The notes beneath the pieces are model-generated. The model ran no database searches and was not told the DNA's origin. It saw nothing but the letters and a program-made list of their open reading frames with translations. A DNA stretch of 64,000 bases. Source: Amycolatopsis jejuensis. GTDB taxonomy: Bacteria > Actinomycetota > Actinomycetes > Mycobacteriales > Pseudonocardiaceae. Positions 33,597 through 41,204 of the stretch are shown one piece after another (the stretch's first letter is position 1; every line of letters begins with the position of its first letter). Where the stretch lies: assembly GCF_000717335.1 (NCBI RefSeq), contig NZ_JNYZ01000027.1:1-64000 (forward strand), read 5' to 3'. Position numbers and translations under genes: made by a program.

Positions 33597-34940
33597 ATGG
33601 GTGCGAACGAGGGGCGCGGGCGAACGGCGCAGGCGCGGGTGCGCGCGGTGGCCACGCCCGAGCTGTACCGGCGCAACCCATTCCGCATCACCGGACTCAC
33701 CGCGGGTGCGACGCGGCGGGAGGTGCGGGAGCGGCGACTTCGGGTCCTGGGGGTACTCGAAGTCGGCGGGGCCGTGCCCGACGGGGTGCCTGCCGACGCG
33801 AGCGTCGACGACGTGCGGGCGGCCTTCGACGCGCTCGGCAACACCGAGCACCGCTTCGTCGACGAGGTCTTCTGGCTCTGGGGCCTGCCCACCGGCTGCG
33901 GGTGCCCGAACCAGCTGCACCAGAAGCACGACAACGCGGTCGCCGCGCACGCGGCTGCGCTCGATGCCGAGGCGGAGCGTACCGACGACCATCCGACTCC
34001 ACTGTGGACCGAAGCCGCGCGATGCTGGACGGTCGTGTTGCGCAGTGATTCGTTCTGGCAGCATTTGGCTTACCGGGTGGAAAAACTCGGCGACCGCCGT
34101 CTCGACGAATCCACTGTGGACGGACTACGGACGGCGTTGCCCGGCGCGGTGCTGGCTCCCTTGATCGACGTCGCGCTGCGGTCACCCGAACCGCAGCGGC
34201 TCATGGGGTACCTCGACGAGTTCGGCGCGGACCGGCATACTGTCGAGGACGCTCGGACAGCCATTGCCGACGGCACTTACCGGCACCTCGAAGGCCTGCT
34301 CAAAAGCCTCCGCAGCGAGCTCGACGGGAACCGGGCCGAGACCGCGGCCGAACGTGCCGTAACGGAAGCCGCACCGCTGTTCGACCGCCTCGACGACCTG
34401 GTTCCGCGCACCGAATTCCGCCGTACCGCAACGCTTTCGGAAGCGACCGCAGTGGTGGCCAACAACATCGGCGTTGCGTTGGCCGACGTTCGAGACGCGC
34501 CAAGCGATCTGCTACGCGACGTGTTCGCGCTCGCCCGGCGTTGCACCCTCGATCCGGAAACGCTGGAAGCGGTGGGACGCAATGAAAGAATGGCTCTGGA
34601 AACCCCCGTATTCAGGCAATCTACCAGGCAGGCGGTTCCGGTCAGCCGCATTCTGTACGCCCTGCTGCACGGCGCCGCCGGAATCGCGTTCCTGGTGGCA
34701 CAGCTACCTGATCTGCTGCCGGTGGTCTTCCTCGTCGGCGCGCCGGGACTGCTGGTGACCTACGCGGGCGCGGGCAATCCGCGGGTCGGGCCCATGCGGT
34801 ACCCGGTGCTGCTCGGCATCGACGCGGGTCTGTACCTCGGGCTCGGCCAGACCGAGCTCCCGGCCTGGGTGGCCATCGGCATCGTCGCGGTACTGCTGGT
34901 CGTCGCTCCGGTCATCGGCGCGGGAAGGGGCTCCCGGTGA
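33597..34940 (+). CDS. J-domain-like membrane protein of the Hsp70 operon
   Basis: 447 aa. The N-terminal ELYRRNPFRITGLTAGATRREVRERR resembles the degenerate J-like domain seen in eukaryotic-like actinobacterial co-chaperones; the HPD tripeptide that stimulates DnaK is absent. A conserved RFVDEVFWLWGLP and a long helical middle (residues 120-340) follow, then about four transmembrane helices at 345-440 (ILYALLHGAAGIAFLVAQL through VAIGIVAVLLVVAPVIG). It is thus anchored with a large cytoplasmic part. The stop overlaps the GrpE-like start (GTGA). Probably recruits the Hsp70 to the membrane; inferred. Confidence 0.7.
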   Translation: MGANEGRGRTAQARVRAVATPELYRRNPFRITGLTAGATRREVRERRLRVLGVLEVGGAVPDGVPADASVDDVRAAFDALGNTEHRFVDEVFWLWGLPTGCGCPNQLHQKHDNAVAAHAAALDAEAERTDDHPTPLWTEAARCWTVVLRSDSFWQHLAYRVEKLGDRRLDESTVDGLRTALPGAVLAPLIDVALRSPEPQRLMGYLDEFGADRHTVEDARTAIADGTYRHLEGLLKSLRSELDGNRAETAAERAVTEAAPLFDRLDDLVPRTEFRRTATLSEATAVVANNIGVALADVRDAPSDLLRDVFALARRCTLDPETLEAVGRNERMALETPVFRQSTRQAVPVSRILYALLHGAAGIAFLVAQLPDLLPVVFLVGAPGLLVTYAGAGNPRVGPMRYPVLLGIDAGLYLGLGQTELPAWVAIGIVAVLLVVAPVIGAGRGSR

Positions 34941-35416
34941 GCAAACGACGGATCGAGGCGCGGCAGCGCAGGCACCACAAGGAATTCCGGATCGCCGAGC
35001 CCGGCGTCGGGGCCGACGAGCGGGCCCGGCTGCGGGAACTGATCGACCACGTGAGCCCGACGGGTCCGGAACTGTCCGAATCGGACCTGGCGGAGGCGGC
35101 GACCGCGCTGTGGCGTGCGAGACGCAAGCTCGCCGGTGCGGAGGACCGGCTCGCCCGGCAGGCGGGCCGGTTCCTCAGCGCGAGCCAGGACGCGCTCGAC
35201 GCGGCCGGGGTGCTGGTGCAGGACCACGACCGGATTCCGTTCGGTTCCGGGATGGCGCTCGAGGTGCTGCTGTTCCAGGACGAACCGGAGCTGGACGTCG
35301 AGCGGGTGGTGGAGACCGTCCGGCCGTCGATTTACCTGACCGGGCGCCGGATCCAGATGGGACAGGTCATCGTGGGGCGCCCGGCTGCCCACGGGAACGG
35401 GGAAGCGGATGCGTGA
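34937..35416 (+). CDS. GrpE-like protein
   Basis: 159 aa. A basic N-terminus (MSKRRIEARQRRHHKEF), a helical stretch (ATALWRARRKLAGAEDRLARQ), then a beta-rich end: HDRIPFGSGMALEVLLFQ, VVETVRPSIYLTGRRIQMGQVIVG. The last part has the spacing of the GrpE C-terminal domain (pro-rich turn, G-Y-x-L, R-x-A-x-V-x-V), which opens the DnaK nucleotide cleft. Overall similarity is low, so this call rests partly on its place between a J-like protein and an Hsp70. GTG start; 8-base overlap with the Hsp70 gene. Confidence 0.5.
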   Translation: MSKRRIEARQRRHHKEFRIAEPGVGADERARLRELIDHVSPTGPELSESDLAEAATALWRARRKLAGAEDRLARQAGRFLSASQDALDAAGVLVQDHDRIPFGSGMALEVLLFQDEPELDVERVVETVRPSIYLTGRRIQMGQVIVGRPAAHGNGEADA

Positions 35417-37898
35417 CACGATCGATTTCGGAATCGACCTCGGTACCACGAACAGCGCCATTGCGGTACTCGACAACGGCGCGGTTTCGGTGATCAAGAA
35501 CAACGACCAGATGGACTACACGCCGTCGGCCGTGTGGATTCGCAAACGAGGCGTGATCGAGGTCGGGGCCGGTGCGCGCCGCCGGATCGAGGACGACCCG
35601 GAAAGCGTGCAGATCGAATTCAAGCAGTCCATGGGATTGCCTGATGCACGAAGGGAATTCGCCAGGGCCGGTGTTTCGATGACGCCGGTGGAACTGTCCG
35701 CGGAAGTGTTGCGCACGTTGCGCGGATCCGTCGCGCCCCGGGAATTGCCTGATGCAGCAGTGATCACCGTCCCCGCCGCCTTCCTGCTCAACCAGACCGA
35801 AGCAACGCAGGAGGCGGCAAAACTGGCCGGGTTCACCGGGCCGTGCCCGTTGCTGCAGGAACCGACTGCGGCGGCATTTGCGTTCGGCTTCCAGAATGAG
35901 GGCAAGGGCGCGCACTGGATGGTCTTCGACTTCGGTGGCGGCACTTTCGATTCCGCGGTGGTCAGTACGATCGAGGGCGAGTTGAGCGTATTGCACCACG
36001 CCGGTGACACGCACCTCGGCGGGCGCAATATCGACCAGGCTGTCCTGGACCGGGTGCTCGCCCCGGAAGCCGGACGACAGCTGGGGCTGGCCGATTTCAC
36101 CCGCGAAAACCCGCGCTGGCGCACGAATTTCGCGAAGCTGCGCAGTGCCGCCGAGGTCGCGAAGATCCAATTGTCCCAAGTGGACCAGACGCAGGTCATG
36201 CTCGACCTCGATCGCGGCGACGGGCAAACCGAGTTCTTCGAATACACCCTGCGGCGCGAGGAGGTCGACCAGCTGGCCAGGCCGTTCTACCTGCGTGCGG
36301 TCCAATTGTGCCGCGACGCACTGGAATCGGCGAATCTGCGTACGTCGGACATCGACCGGCTCCTGCTCGTCGGCGGCCCCACCCTCGCGCCCGGCCTGCG
36401 GGAACTGTTGGCCGACCCGGCCGCTGGGCTCGGGATTCCCCTTGACCACAGCCAAGATCCGAGCACCGTGGTCGCGCGAGGTGCGGCGGTTTACGCCGGG
36501 ACGGTCGCCCGGCCGCGAACGGTGCAGCCGCCGAAACGCGGTGAGTACACAGTGGAATTGTCTTACCCGGCCACCACGAGCCTGCCGGTCGTCCCGGTGT
36601 CCGGCCGTTGCGCCACCGACGGCGCCGCCGACTGGACCCGGTTCCGGATCGCGCTCAGTGCGGCACAACGCAGGCCGGTTTATCGGACCGCCGAGGTTTC
36701 CCTTTCCGCAGACGGAACTTTCACCGTCGAAGCGGTGCTCGCCGAATTGAGCACGAACCGGTTCGAGGTGGAATTACTCGACCCGGCCGGATCGCGCGTC
36801 CCGGTGCGGCCGGACACGCTCACGATCACCCACCAGCTCAACGAAATGATGGGCCAGACCGTGGTGAACACTGTCGGCCTGACCGAGGCGGACGGCACTT
36901 TCACCCCCATGCTCATGAAGAACACGCCGTTGAGAGCATCGAAACGGCAGCCGTTCTACACCACCGCGACATTGCACCGCGGCGACACGTCGAGTGTGAT
37001 CCGGATTCCGGTCGCGGAGGGCGAACGTCGCCGTGGTGAGCGAAATCAGCAGGTGGGCCTGATCGAAATCCGTGCCAAGGACGTGCGATTCGATCTGCCC
37101 CGTGGCAGCGAGGTCGTGATGACGTTCGAAATGGACGAATCGCGCCGCGTTTCGGTGGTGGCCGAGGTTCCGTTGCTGGACGCGGAATTCGAGGCGGTGA
37201 TCGACCTCAAACAGCAGCACGTCCCGGACCCGCCGACGCTGCGACGGCTGCTGAACGAGCTGGAGGCCCGGCACGAGCAGGTGCGGTCGCAGGTCGAGGG
37301 AACCCGGTCCGATCGGGCCCGCGGGCTGCTGAACCGGCTGGACGGCCAGGGCAGCGTCGTGGCCGTGCGGGAGGAGGTGCGCGCCGGCACCGCGGACGAG
37401 GGGGCCGCGGTGTCGGCGGAGCGGCGCATGCGCGACGTGCAGGCCGACCTCGACGACATCGAGGCGGAGCTGCGCGTTCCCGAGGTGATGGAACGGCTGC
37501 GCGATCAGATCGACCACTGCCGCGAGCTGGTCGACCGCGTCGGGTCCGAAGAGGACCGGACGGAACTCGCGGAAATCGAACGCCGCTACGCCGTCATCGC
37601 CGAGGCGCATGATGTCGAGGCCGGGGAACGGTTGTCGGAGCGGATTCTGGACCTGCAGGTGTTGTTGCTGCGCCGCGACGGTTCGCTGGATCTGGAGGTT
37701 TTCAACGCACTGCGGGCTTCCCGGGACAGCATGTCCGACCCGGCTCGCGCGCGGGAGCTCATCCGCGAAGGAGAACGCGTGATCGCGGCATCGAACTGGC
37801 CCGCGCTGCCCGACGTCAACCGCCGGTTGAGGCGCCTTCTCCCGGACGACAATCCGGGTCAGGCGGGTGGCGGAATTCTTCGTGGGGACCGGGAATGA
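35409..37898 (+). CDS. Long Hsp70 (DnaK-like) protein
   Basis: 829 aa, about 200 longer than DnaK. The ATPase domain (1-385) has the full set: GIDLGTTNSAIAVL (phosphate 1), VITVPAAF, EPTAAAFAFG, FDFGGGTFDSAVV (phosphate 2) and LLLVGGPTLAPGLRELL (adenosine). A beta-sandwich-like region follows at about 390-610, where the usual substrate-binding sequence is not recognisable. Residues 610-825 are charged coiled-coil helices with many ER/ELxR heptads. It is not the housekeeping DnaK, which would have canonical GrpE/DnaJ partners and an acidic tail. Embedded in a four-gene overlapping operon. Confidence 0.88.
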   Translation: MRDTIDFGIDLGTTNSAIAVLDNGAVSVIKNNDQMDYTPSAVWIRKRGVIEVGAGARRRIEDDPESVQIEFKQSMGLPDARREFARAGVSMTPVELSAEVLRTLRGSVAPRELPDAAVITVPAAFLLNQTEATQEAAKLAGFTGPCPLLQEPTAAAFAFGFQNEGKGAHWMVFDFGGGTFDSAVVSTIEGELSVLHHAGDTHLGGRNIDQAVLDRVLAPEAGRQLGLADFTRENPRWRTNFAKLRSAAEVAKIQLSQVDQTQVMLDLDRGDGQTEFFEYTLRREEVDQLARPFYLRAVQLCRDALESANLRTSDIDRLLLVGGPTLAPGLRELLADPAAGLGIPLDHSQDPSTVVARGAAVYAGTVARPRTVQPPKRGEYTVELSYPATTSLPVVPVSGRCATDGAADWTRFRIALSAAQRRPVYRTAEVSLSADGTFTVEAVLAELSTNRFEVELLDPAGSRVPVRPDTLTITHQLNEMMGQTVVNTVGLTEADGTFTPMLMKNTPLRASKRQPFYTTATLHRGDTSSVIRIPVAEGERRRGERNQQVGLIEIRAKDVRFDLPRGSEVVMTFEMDESRRVSVVAEVPLLDAEFEAVIDLKQQHVPDPPTLRRLLNELEARHEQVRSQVEGTRSDRARGLLNRLDGQGSVVAVREEVRAGTADEGAAVSAERRMRDVQADLDDIEAELRVPEVMERLRDQIDHCRELVDRVGSEEDRTELAEIERRYAVIAEAHDVEAGERLSERILDLQVLLLRRDGSLDLEVFNALRASRDSMSDPARARELIREGERVIAASNWPALPDVNRRLRRLLPDDNPGQAGGGILRGDRE

Positions 37899-38761
37899 AT
37901 GCGGCCCTGGAACGAGAACTCGACCTCGCCGAAGCCGCCGACCTGGCCCGGAACGGCGATTACGCGACGGCAATCACAGTGCTGGAACGGAGTTCGGCGG
38001 ACGATCCGGCCCGGCTGGACCTGCTCGCCCGCGTGTATGCCCAATCCGGCGACCTGGACAAAGCTGATGAAGCTTGGGCGGAGGTACTGCAAATCCGTCC
38101 CGGCGATTCCGCCGCAGAGGCCGGACGACGGGTCATCGCAAAAGTCCGATCCGGACGGTTGCGCCGCCGTCCGATCCGCCGGTACCTGCTGGCGGCAGGC
38201 GCGGTGGTGCTGATCGGGGCAGCAGCAACCGCGGGAGTACTCACCATCCGGCCCACCCCCGCAGTCACGACGGCAAAACCCGACGATGGCCTGAAGCAAG
38301 AACTAGATCGCTTACACAGCGCGGAATCCAGCAACGCCAAAACACGGCAAGATCACCGAGCCGAACTCGAAAAGCTGGCACGACGGCTGACAAAACCAGG
38401 CGTCACCGCAAAAGCGGAGGAAGACGCGGTAGCCATCACCTTCGAGAAAGGTCTCTTCAATCCGAACGCGACAACCCCGAACCAGCAAGGACGGGAAGCA
38501 CTAGACCAATGGGCCGAAGTCCTCAAAGGACAGCCGGTTGCGGTCACGGTGATCGGCCACGGAGTGCCCGTCGCAGGCGGCCCGGCGAGTGGAGGTTCGA
38601 CGGTCTCCTTGACCCGCGCAGCATCAGCAGCCCGCATCTTGGCCGAGGCGAGCGGATTGCCGTTGACCACCTTCGCGATCTCCAGCGCCGACCAAAGCAC
38701 GTCGGTACACGCCGATCCGGAAGCCAACCGGACGGTCACCTTGCAGGTGCGCCCGACCTGA
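37895..38761 (+). CDS. TPR / single-pass membrane / OmpA-like protein
   Basis: 288 aa. Residues 5-85 are two TPR-like helix pairs (AADLARNGDYATAITVLERS, LARVYAQSGDLDKADEAWAEVLQI). A transmembrane helix follows basic residues at about 97-117 (RRYLLAAGAVVLIGAAATAGVL), then a short coiled-coil (about 128-160). The C-terminus (about 170-285) resembles the OmpA/MotB domain: AITFEKGLFNPNATT, VAVTVIGHG, SLTRAASAARILAEASGL, NRTVTLQV. It would link a cytoplasmic TPR to the cell wall. Start overlaps the Hsp70 stop (ATGA). Its 3' end overlaps the convergent esterase gene by 26 bases. Confidence 0.72.
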   Translation: MNAALERELDLAEAADLARNGDYATAITVLERSSADDPARLDLLARVYAQSGDLDKADEAWAEVLQIRPGDSAAEAGRRVIAKVRSGRLRRRPIRRYLLAAGAVVLIGAAATAGVLTIRPTPAVTTAKPDDGLKQELDRLHSAESSNAKTRQDHRAELEKLARRLTKPGVTAKAEEDAVAITFEKGLFNPNATTPNQQGREALDQWAEVLKGQPVAVTVIGHGVPVAGGPASGGSTVSLTRAASAARILAEASGLPLTTFAISSADQSTSVHADPEANRTVTLQVRPT

Positions 38762-39752: not shown

Positions 39753-41204
39753 GTGGGAGCGGTGACCGACGAGGACAGCGACGAAACCACCTACGTCAAC
39801 CGCATCTCCGGGGGTACCTACGACAAAGTCGTGATGGCGGGCGCGGTACACGGCGATGTCAACGTCGGCTACGGCGATCGTCCGGAAGACCTGGCCGACC
39901 CCATCATCACGTCCGTCCGGCTGGTGCCCGGCGGTACGCTGGCGGACCTCGTGATCGATTCCGATCCGCCGCAGGTGGCGGTTCCCGGCGGCACGGTCCA
40001 CGTCATCACCGTGGAGGCGAAGACCACCCGCGCCGTCGTACTCCATTCCGCGCGGCCGGTCATCGTGTCGCGCACGCTGCCGCGTCCGGCGTGCCTGCTC
40101 GTGCGGGTCGGCGCGACGCTCGAACCCCGCCGTTTCACCACCGACTTCGACGCGCAGCCGCTCCGGATGCAGGCACAGGGCGCGGACTTCCCGTTCACCG
40201 TCAGCGCCACCGACGTCGAGCAGTTCCAGTTCGAGCCGGTCACCCGCACCCACGAGATCGCCTGGCACCTGGAGCTGGACTGGACCTGCGCGGGCCGCAG
40301 CGGCACCACGATCGTCGACAACCACGGCGAACCGTTCCGCGTGTACCCGGTGGCCGCGCTCTTCGACGGCCGCGACGACTCGGTGCTCAACTCGGGCTGC
40401 GACCTCTTCCACGAACGCGGCTGCCCGGCCGGGCTGCTCGAAGCCACAGGTCAGCCCGCTTCCCTGTGGGACGGCGCCGGTCCGCTGCCGCTCTACCCGG
40501 CGCCGGCGCCCATCGCCGACGAGGATCCCGAGGACGTCCTCCGCGGCACCCTGCCGACGGCCGACCCCGACCTGCCCGAATCCTGGCCGGAGTACCGCCG
40601 GATCGCGACGAGTGTCCGGAGGCTGGCCGCGCGGCCCGGCTTCCGCCACCAGCCGGACGAGCTGCTCCTGCGGGTCCTGCGCTACCTCTTCGTGTCCGGC
40701 CAGTCCCGTCCGGGCGCGATCCTCGGCCGCCGGATCCGCGACGACTGGGCCGAGGCGCTCGGCGAGGACCATCCGGACACCCTCGCCGCCGCCAACCGGC
40801 TCGCCGGCTGCCTGATCGGGATGCGCGAGTACCCGGAGGCGCGCGACCTGCTGTCCGACCTGCTGCCCCGGTTCAGCCGCGTCCTCGGCGAGGAGCACCG
40901 GCTGACCCTGATCGTCGCGAGCAACCTCTGCGTCGTCCACATGGGGCTGGACGAGTACGAGAAGGCACGCGACCAGACGAAGGACGTGATCCGCCGGACC
41001 AGCCGCGCGTTGGGTCCCGACGATCCGGGGGCGCTGCGCGCGTCCAGCAACCTCGTAGCGATCCACCGGCGGCTCGGGGATCGATCCGCCGCGCTGGCCG
41101 TGCTCGAGGACATCCTGCCGCGCTACCGGCGCACCCTCGGCGATGCGCACCCGGACACGCGCAAGGCAGCTGCCACGTTGGAGGAGCTGCAAGCCGAGGG
41201 GTGA
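39753..41204 (+). CDS. TPR-repeat protein with ISGG-type N-terminal peptide
   Basis: 483 aa. The N-terminus YVNRISGGTYDKVVMAGAVHGDVNVG is the short beta motif that recurs at the head of actinobacterial signalling and conflict proteins (NLR-like ATPases, TPR and effector fusions). Residues 60-240 form an unassigned beta-rich region with two cysteines (DLFHERGCPAGL). Residues 285-480 hold kinesin-light-chain-type TPRs (LGEDHPDTLAAANRLAGCL, LGEEHRLTLIVASNLCVVH, LGDAHPDTRKAAATLEEL). No ATPase or nuclease is present. The start could also be GTG 39762. Confidence 0.75.
   Translation: MGAVTDEDSDETTYVNRISGGTYDKVVMAGAVHGDVNVGYGDRPEDLADPIITSVRLVPGGTLADLVIDSDPPQVAVPGGTVHVITVEAKTTRAVVLHSARPVIVSRTLPRPACLLVRVGATLEPRRFTTDFDAQPLRMQAQGADFPFTVSATDVEQFQFEPVTRTHEIAWHLELDWTCAGRSGTTIVDNHGEPFRVYPVAALFDGRDDSVLNSGCDLFHERGCPAGLLEATGQPASLWDGAGPLPLYPAPAPIADEDPEDVLRGTLPTADPDLPESWPEYRRIATSVRRLAARPGFRHQPDELLLRVLRYLFVSGQSRPGAILGRRIRDDWAEALGEDHPDTLAAANRLAGCLIGMREYPEARDLLSDLLPRFSRVLGEEHRLTLIVASNLCVVHMGLDEYEKARDQTKDVIRRTSRALGPDDPGALRASSNLVAIHRRLGDRSAALAVLEDILPRYRRTLGDAHPDTRKAAATLEELQAEG

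Follow-up and report, generated by a model that had tools for sequence, protein, structure and literature searches.

In the DnaK-DnaJ-GrpE system, D35 of DnaJ contacts R167 and Q378 of its Hsp70, and E206, D211 and E217 help to position D35 (PMC8215388). Wherever it has been tested, J-Hsp70 function is considered to require the HPD contact (PMC8215388). HscC is a specialized bacterial Hsp70 with membrane-anchored J-type partners, the tail-anchored DjlB and DjlC; it kept its J proteins and dropped GrpE, and HscA and HscC have both lost the GrpE-contact loop of the nucleotide-binding domain (NBD) (PMC8215388). In Myxococcus xanthus, MxDnaK2 is co-transcribed with a GrpE of its own, MXAN_6672, and deletion affects sporulation, fruiting and motility (PMC11019930). 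In actinobacteria, the second theme of the GAP1-N2 systems combines HSP70 and GrpE with a DnaJ- or TPR-type protein, with suspected ties to membrane and wall (PMC7159879).

The locus described here lies in a 64,000-nucleotide stretch of Amycolatopsis jejuensis contig NZ_JNYZ01000027.1 (hereafter the window), from a 10.1 Mb actinobacterial assembly, and its features are listed in Table 1. It resembles DnaK-DnaJ-GrpE in its Hsp70 ATPase residues, its SBD-beta (the beta part of the substrate-binding domain, SBD) and its GrpE fold, however, it lacks an HPD motif, has changes at four DnaJ-docking positions, carries an insert before the SBD and a longer tail, and has membrane partners. It shares with HscC a specialized Hsp70 and membrane-anchored J-type partners, but has no HPD and keeps a GrpE-fold gene, whereas HscC retained J proteins and lost GrpE. 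The GrpE-contact loop missing from HscA and HscC (PMC8215388) is present in its Hsp70, with a 2-residue gap. MxDnaK2 is likewise a second Hsp70 with a dedicated GrpE, but has a normal linker and ordinary J proteins, and the portion of the MxDnaK2 report used here describes no membrane partners encoded in its operon (PMC11019930). The nearest published set is the second GAP1-N2 theme (PMC7159879), from which the operon differs in that the genome has no GAP1-N2 protein and no FNIII-DnaJ fusion was seen. A literature search, judged by titles and the beginnings of abstracts, found no publication on this operon.

Table 1. Coordinates of the operon genes and their parts in the window.
Feature	Position	Strand	Basis
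J-like membrane protein gene, 447 aa	33597..34940	+	ORF, homologues, structure model
HPD-less J-like domain, approximately residues 18-83	33648..33845	+	profile-profile match
Putative metal-binding motif CxC-x4-H-x2-H-D (residues 101-112)	33897..33932	+	
C-terminal membrane helices, residues 349-444	34641..34928	+	model and hydropathy
GrpE-like nucleotide exchange factor gene, 159 aa	34937..35416	+	ORF, AlphaFold2 model, Foldseek
Hsp70 gene, 829 aa	35409..37898	+	ORF, Pfam
NBD, residues 7-366	35427..36506	+	Pfam HSP70 E=1e-68
Insert separating the NBD from the SBD, residues 367-484	36507..36860	+	bounded by Pfam and SBD matches
SBD match, residues 485-631	36861..37301	+	phmmer matches with DnaK SBD structures, lowest E=3.1e-4
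C-terminal tail, residues 632-829, candidate lid or coiled coil	37302..37895	+	no match to DnaK SBD structures
TPR - membrane helix - OmpA-like gene, 288 aa	37895..38761	+	ORF, Pfam
TPR region, residues 18-75	37946..38119	+	Pfam TPR_19/TPR_2
Single membrane segment, residues 98-116	38186..38242	+	hydropathy
OmpA-like domain, residues 187-268	38453..38698	+	Pfam OmpA 24.8 bits, below cut-off

Results

The gene order is conserved and the operon is patchily distributed

The original prediction described four genes overlapping by 4-8 bases, and the window's ORF list confirmed this at 33597-38761: four plus-strand ORFs overlap by 4, 8 and 4 bases, with GTGA forming the 4-base overlap between the J-like and GrpE-like genes. 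It had further proposed a search for the same order in other actinobacteria. Scanning one genome per species (GTDB) with a GrpE-like alignment yielded 52 loci, at which gene presence was scored with profiles built from these same loci. The J-like gene was found in 52/52, the GrpE-like gene, which was the search key, in 52/52, the Hsp70 gene in 50/52 and the TPR-OmpA gene in 43/52. The order J-GrpE-Hsp70 held in 49 of the 50 loci with all three genes, the exception being L046, where the J-like gene comes last, and the TPR-OmpA gene followed next in 42 of the 43 loci possessing it. Of the two loci without Hsp70, one stops at a contig end and the other, L057, contains Hsp70 in broken-up pieces. 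The four-gene order is thus conserved in actinobacteria.

A J-like search matched 12 of 60 relatives, the window's own genome included, and in 11 of these 12 the GrpE-like gene adjoins the J-like gene. In the remaining genome, of the same genus, all that is left of the J-like gene is a brief segment interrupted by two stop codons (L069), which points to operon decay. The GrpE-like search matched 14 of 394 genomes of the class, again counting our own. Together this shows an operon whose order is conserved and whose spread is patchy. Tandem J-like genes occur within one operon at L014, L017 and L042, although the pieces at L042 may be one broken gene.

No heat-shock control site of the HAIR type was found in the window, even when as many as 3 mismatches were allowed. 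A promoter scan of the region returned no sigma-70-like promoter, and terminator-like sites were about as frequent as expected (6 observed, 5.1 expected). A conserved gene downstream, at 39753-41204, encodes a TPR_12 protein with an uncharacterized N-terminal part, and Amycolatopsis relatives have it beyond their operon too; at 991 bases from the operon, and in a cluster of 5 members, it was rejected as an operon member.

The second gene encodes a protein with a GrpE fold

The window protein gave no match to Pfam GrpE and so stayed below the gathering score; of its 96 homologues, 38 matched weakly (E<=1, with 0.0019 the lowest value). A profile of the GrpE-like family compared with single PDB sequences returned 5 weak matches, none of them GrpE; the identity of the protein was settled by the fold search. 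The AlphaFold2 model (pLDDT 89.2) has the helices and C-terminal beta domain of GrpE, and its first 12 Foldseek matches were all GrpE chains, 4 of them at E<=0.001. The GrpE-like fold put forward originally is thus upheld by structure prediction.

The Hsp70 keeps its ATPase residues and differs at four DnaJ-docking positions

Hsp70 residues were compared in a MAFFT alignment of 50 sequences, comprising the window protein and 49 further loci, the nearest of which is an Amycolatopsis protein with 89% identity. The ATPase residues (equivalents of D8, K70, E171, D194, T199 and D201) are kept in 50/50. At the DnaJ-docking surface, four positions are changed in all 50 sequences: the R167 equivalent is P in every one, the Q378 equivalent is replaced by F (43 sequences), Y (6) or L (1), and the equivalents of E206 and E217 are not acidic in any. 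The N170 equivalent is Q in 50/50, and P419, a DnaJ contact, is kept in 49/50, with R in the window protein, which speaks against a complete loss of docking. The same proline stands at the R167 site in 15/15 partial Hsp70 sequences from other genomes of the class in which the motif was readable, our own excluded. The host's own DnaK keeps R, N, Q, E and E at R167, N170, Q378, E206 and E217. This housekeeping DnaK is encoded on another contig (C9), followed by GrpE and DnaJ, in agreement with the proposal that the operon machine is distinct from it.

The coiled-coil tail originally predicted in place of a normal substrate lid is no simple substitute for the substrate domain, since a DnaK-type SBD-beta is present. 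All 39 matches of this SBD-beta region up to E=1 were Hsp70s. About 118 residues separate it from the NBD. A conserved [VI]ELxD within this insert aligns opposite the DnaK linker VLLLD, so that the hydrophobic interdomain linker may or may not have been lost.

Two further Hsp70-like genes were observed on other contigs of the genome. One (L003, contig C24) lies two genes from what we take to be recA; its product is an ATPase of Hsp70 type that has a membrane helix and an extracellular tail. The other (L004, contig C12) directly follows a gene that we assume encodes an EccC-like type VII secretion ATPase, and its Hsp70-like product contains a proline-rich stretch and a single membrane helix.

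The first gene encodes a membrane protein with a J-like N-terminus that lacks HPD

The original prediction had this protein as J-like with C-terminal membrane helices. The helices stood: the model, which is all-helical (pLDDT 92.8), has them at residues 349-369, 374-392, 401-416 and 423-444, hydropathy peaks at 349, 370 and 425, and 52 of 55 J-like proteins have a membrane segment past residue 250 by hydropathy. The J fold is supported moderately, by profile. The N-terminus gave a co-linear 64-column match to J domains with a score of 26.9 (E=1.6e-4, probability 50%) in one comparison with a narrow J set, where the best of 60 column shuffles scored 16.8 and other parts of the protein 8-12. Helix II of the J-like proteins is basic in 68/68, as expected of a J domain that binds DnaK, which speaks against a worn-away switch. 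Structure prediction, proposed as a check, returned no J domain among the matches listed; whole-model searches with Foldseek and VIA were filled by helical repeats, and the full model had no Foldseek match at E<=0.001. Pfam DnaJ was not among the 25 listed of 59 families matching any J-like member. HPD was found in 0/71 J-like proteins (first 120 residues) and in 0/10 of the J-like proteins of a sister set.

Given this, the first protein could be no J protein by descent, but a membrane scaffold built of helical repeats, with an N-terminus that is J-like by chance, leaving the Hsp70 to run with GrpE alone. The missing HPD, the changed docking positions of the Hsp70 and the helical repeats that dominate the fold searches all agree with such a scaffold. 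The co-linear profile match and its distance from the shuffled and internal controls argue against it, and we regard a chance resemblance as rather unlikely, though a serious contender. We keep the reading of a J relative that seems to have lost its HPD.

The CxC-x4-H-x2-H-D pattern is present in 66/71 family members and may form a metal site. An extracellular Septum_form domain is found on 17/71 J-like proteins.

The fourth protein has one membrane segment, and its OmpA-like domain lacks the ligand aspartate

The TPR_2 match of the fourth protein has E=7.8e-7, and one membrane segment was predicted by hydropathy in 38/38 of its family; with the segments of the J-like proteins, this supports the membrane ties expected of the machine. 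An outer, OmpA-like wall-binding domain had also been predicted. The fold found weak backing in Pfam OmpA (E=2.8e-5; 24.8 bits, below the cut-off of 27.2) and in a match of the family profile to the OmpA-like protein PA0833 (6jfw, E=1.3e-5), and R241 is present as Arg in 32/32 OmpA-like domains. Wall binding, however, is doubtful because the peptidoglycan-binding Asp of GHxD is missing: it is absent from the window protein, found in 0/31 of the window's subfamily and in 1/32 overall, that one being L046 of a sister subfamily. In this sister subfamily, which comprises 8 regions together with L046 and L056, the Asp is kept in 7/7 OmpA domains found. A CxxC pair lies near the membrane helices in 8/10 of its members.

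Half of the loci carry a Ser/Thr kinase

A Ser/Thr kinase gene is part of the operon at 26/52 loci, an FHA gene at 14/52 and a PP2C gene at 3/52. HRD and DFG motifs are present in 26/26 operon kinases, a common C-terminal tail in 24/26, and 25/26 have no membrane segment by hydropathy. All 14 FHA proteins have the FHA-type R-x-H-C; the FHA-gene product matches FHA at E=2e-8 and, in its winged-helix part, Trans_reg_C at 22.1 bits, under the cut-off of 26.2. AfsR-like BTAD/NB-ARC/TPR regulators precede the J-like gene by 37 bases at L027 (4729-7731) and by 91 bases at L033 (3845-6961), in the position taken elsewhere by the FHA/winged-helix gene.

In the kinase tree, the 26 operon kinases of the main subfamily group together (support 100), and a split at support 71 divides the operon kinases of both subfamilies from 17 others. 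In the sister subfamily, the kinase lies directly upstream of J in 5/8 regions. No kinase orthologue was found in the window's genome, where the best of 17 kinase matches has 34% identity and none reaches the family's C-terminal tail. The Hsp70 tree requires at least 6 gains or losses of the kinase and does not reveal their direction. The kinase tree and the sister subfamily favour an ancestral kinase, which the window's clade has probably lost. Where the kinase is present, it would tie the machine to a phospho-signalling path, a branch most likely lost from the window's four-gene form.

One could go further and take the operon for a signalling device instead of a chaperone, with the Hsp70 as an ATP-driven regulator of kinase and transcription factor, and the four-gene form as a stripped remnant put to another use. 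The kinase, FHA/winged-helix and PP2C genes within the operon fit such a device, as do the AfsR-like regulators close upstream of J and the extracellular Septum_form domains, but the 26/52 loci without a kinase still keep the J, GrpE and Hsp70 genes, and the Hsp70 has retained its SBD-beta. We consider a pure signalling device unlikely, and prefer a chaperone machine to which signalling is attached in many relatives.

A role in biological conflict finds little backing

The original prediction had left phage defence among the possible roles. A conflict system of multicellular actinobacteria akin to the second GAP1-N2 theme would agree with the patchy spread of the operon and with the account by Kaur et al. 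2020 (PMC7159879) of actinobacterial HSP70 and GrpE alongside proteins of the FNIII-DnaJ or FNIII-TPR type, but we judge it distinctly improbable. Neither this genome nor 14 of the 20 other operon genomes has GAP1-N2, and in the 6 with a match it lies outside the operon locus coordinates. The J-like query matched no plasmid and the GrpE-like query no phage, and PADLOC gave weak matches on the operon proteins (ZorB model, 5e-4). Of 107 flanking proteins from 29 loci, 3 matched models of kinase type among the 25 of 44 families listed, a count to which we attach no weight. Membership in a GAP1-N2 system and carriage on a mobile element were both rejected, and the suggested role in phage defence gained no support.

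Discussion

We favour, as a reasonably probable reading, a dedicated Hsp70 machine at the cell membrane and envelope of actinobacteria. The conserved operon, the GrpE fold, the altered residues, the membrane ties and the linkage to a kinase are features of the sequences or models themselves; an envelope function would follow from them by interpretation. The original observation was thus correct and its interpretation partly so, and to it are added the loss of HPD, the changed DnaJ-docking residues, the Cys/His motif and the kinase, phosphatase and FHA genes of relatives. As judged from sequence, the switch by which J proteins turn on an Hsp70 seems to have eroded in both partners, with the GrpE reset factor kept.

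We hypothesize that the J-like and TPR proteins tether the Hsp70 to the membrane and supply it with clients, which may be the cytoplasmic parts of envelope or septal proteins. In place of the HPD contact, a client or a membrane partner would fire the ATP cycle, as could the kinase of the operon in many relatives, and the GrpE-like protein would then reset the Hsp70. At about half of the loci, the soluble Ser/Thr kinase, sometimes accompanied by an FHA/winged-helix regulator or PP2C, would place the machine in a phospho-signalling path. We also speculate, tentatively and with some doubt, that the operon is a trans-envelope signalling engine: an Hsp70 with an exchange factor and no HPD switch, fired by an envelope-sensing, membrane-spanning J relative and, in half of the lineages, by a dedicated Ser/Thr kinase reporting to an FHA/winged-helix regulator.

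If true, a conserved Hsp70-GrpE pair with altered docking positions and no HPD partner would show that an Hsp70 can be driven in another way. The operon machine seems the opposite of HscA and HscC, which kept J and dropped GrpE, and the linked kinase would offer a direct handle on the control of a chaperone by phosphorylation at the bacterial envelope.
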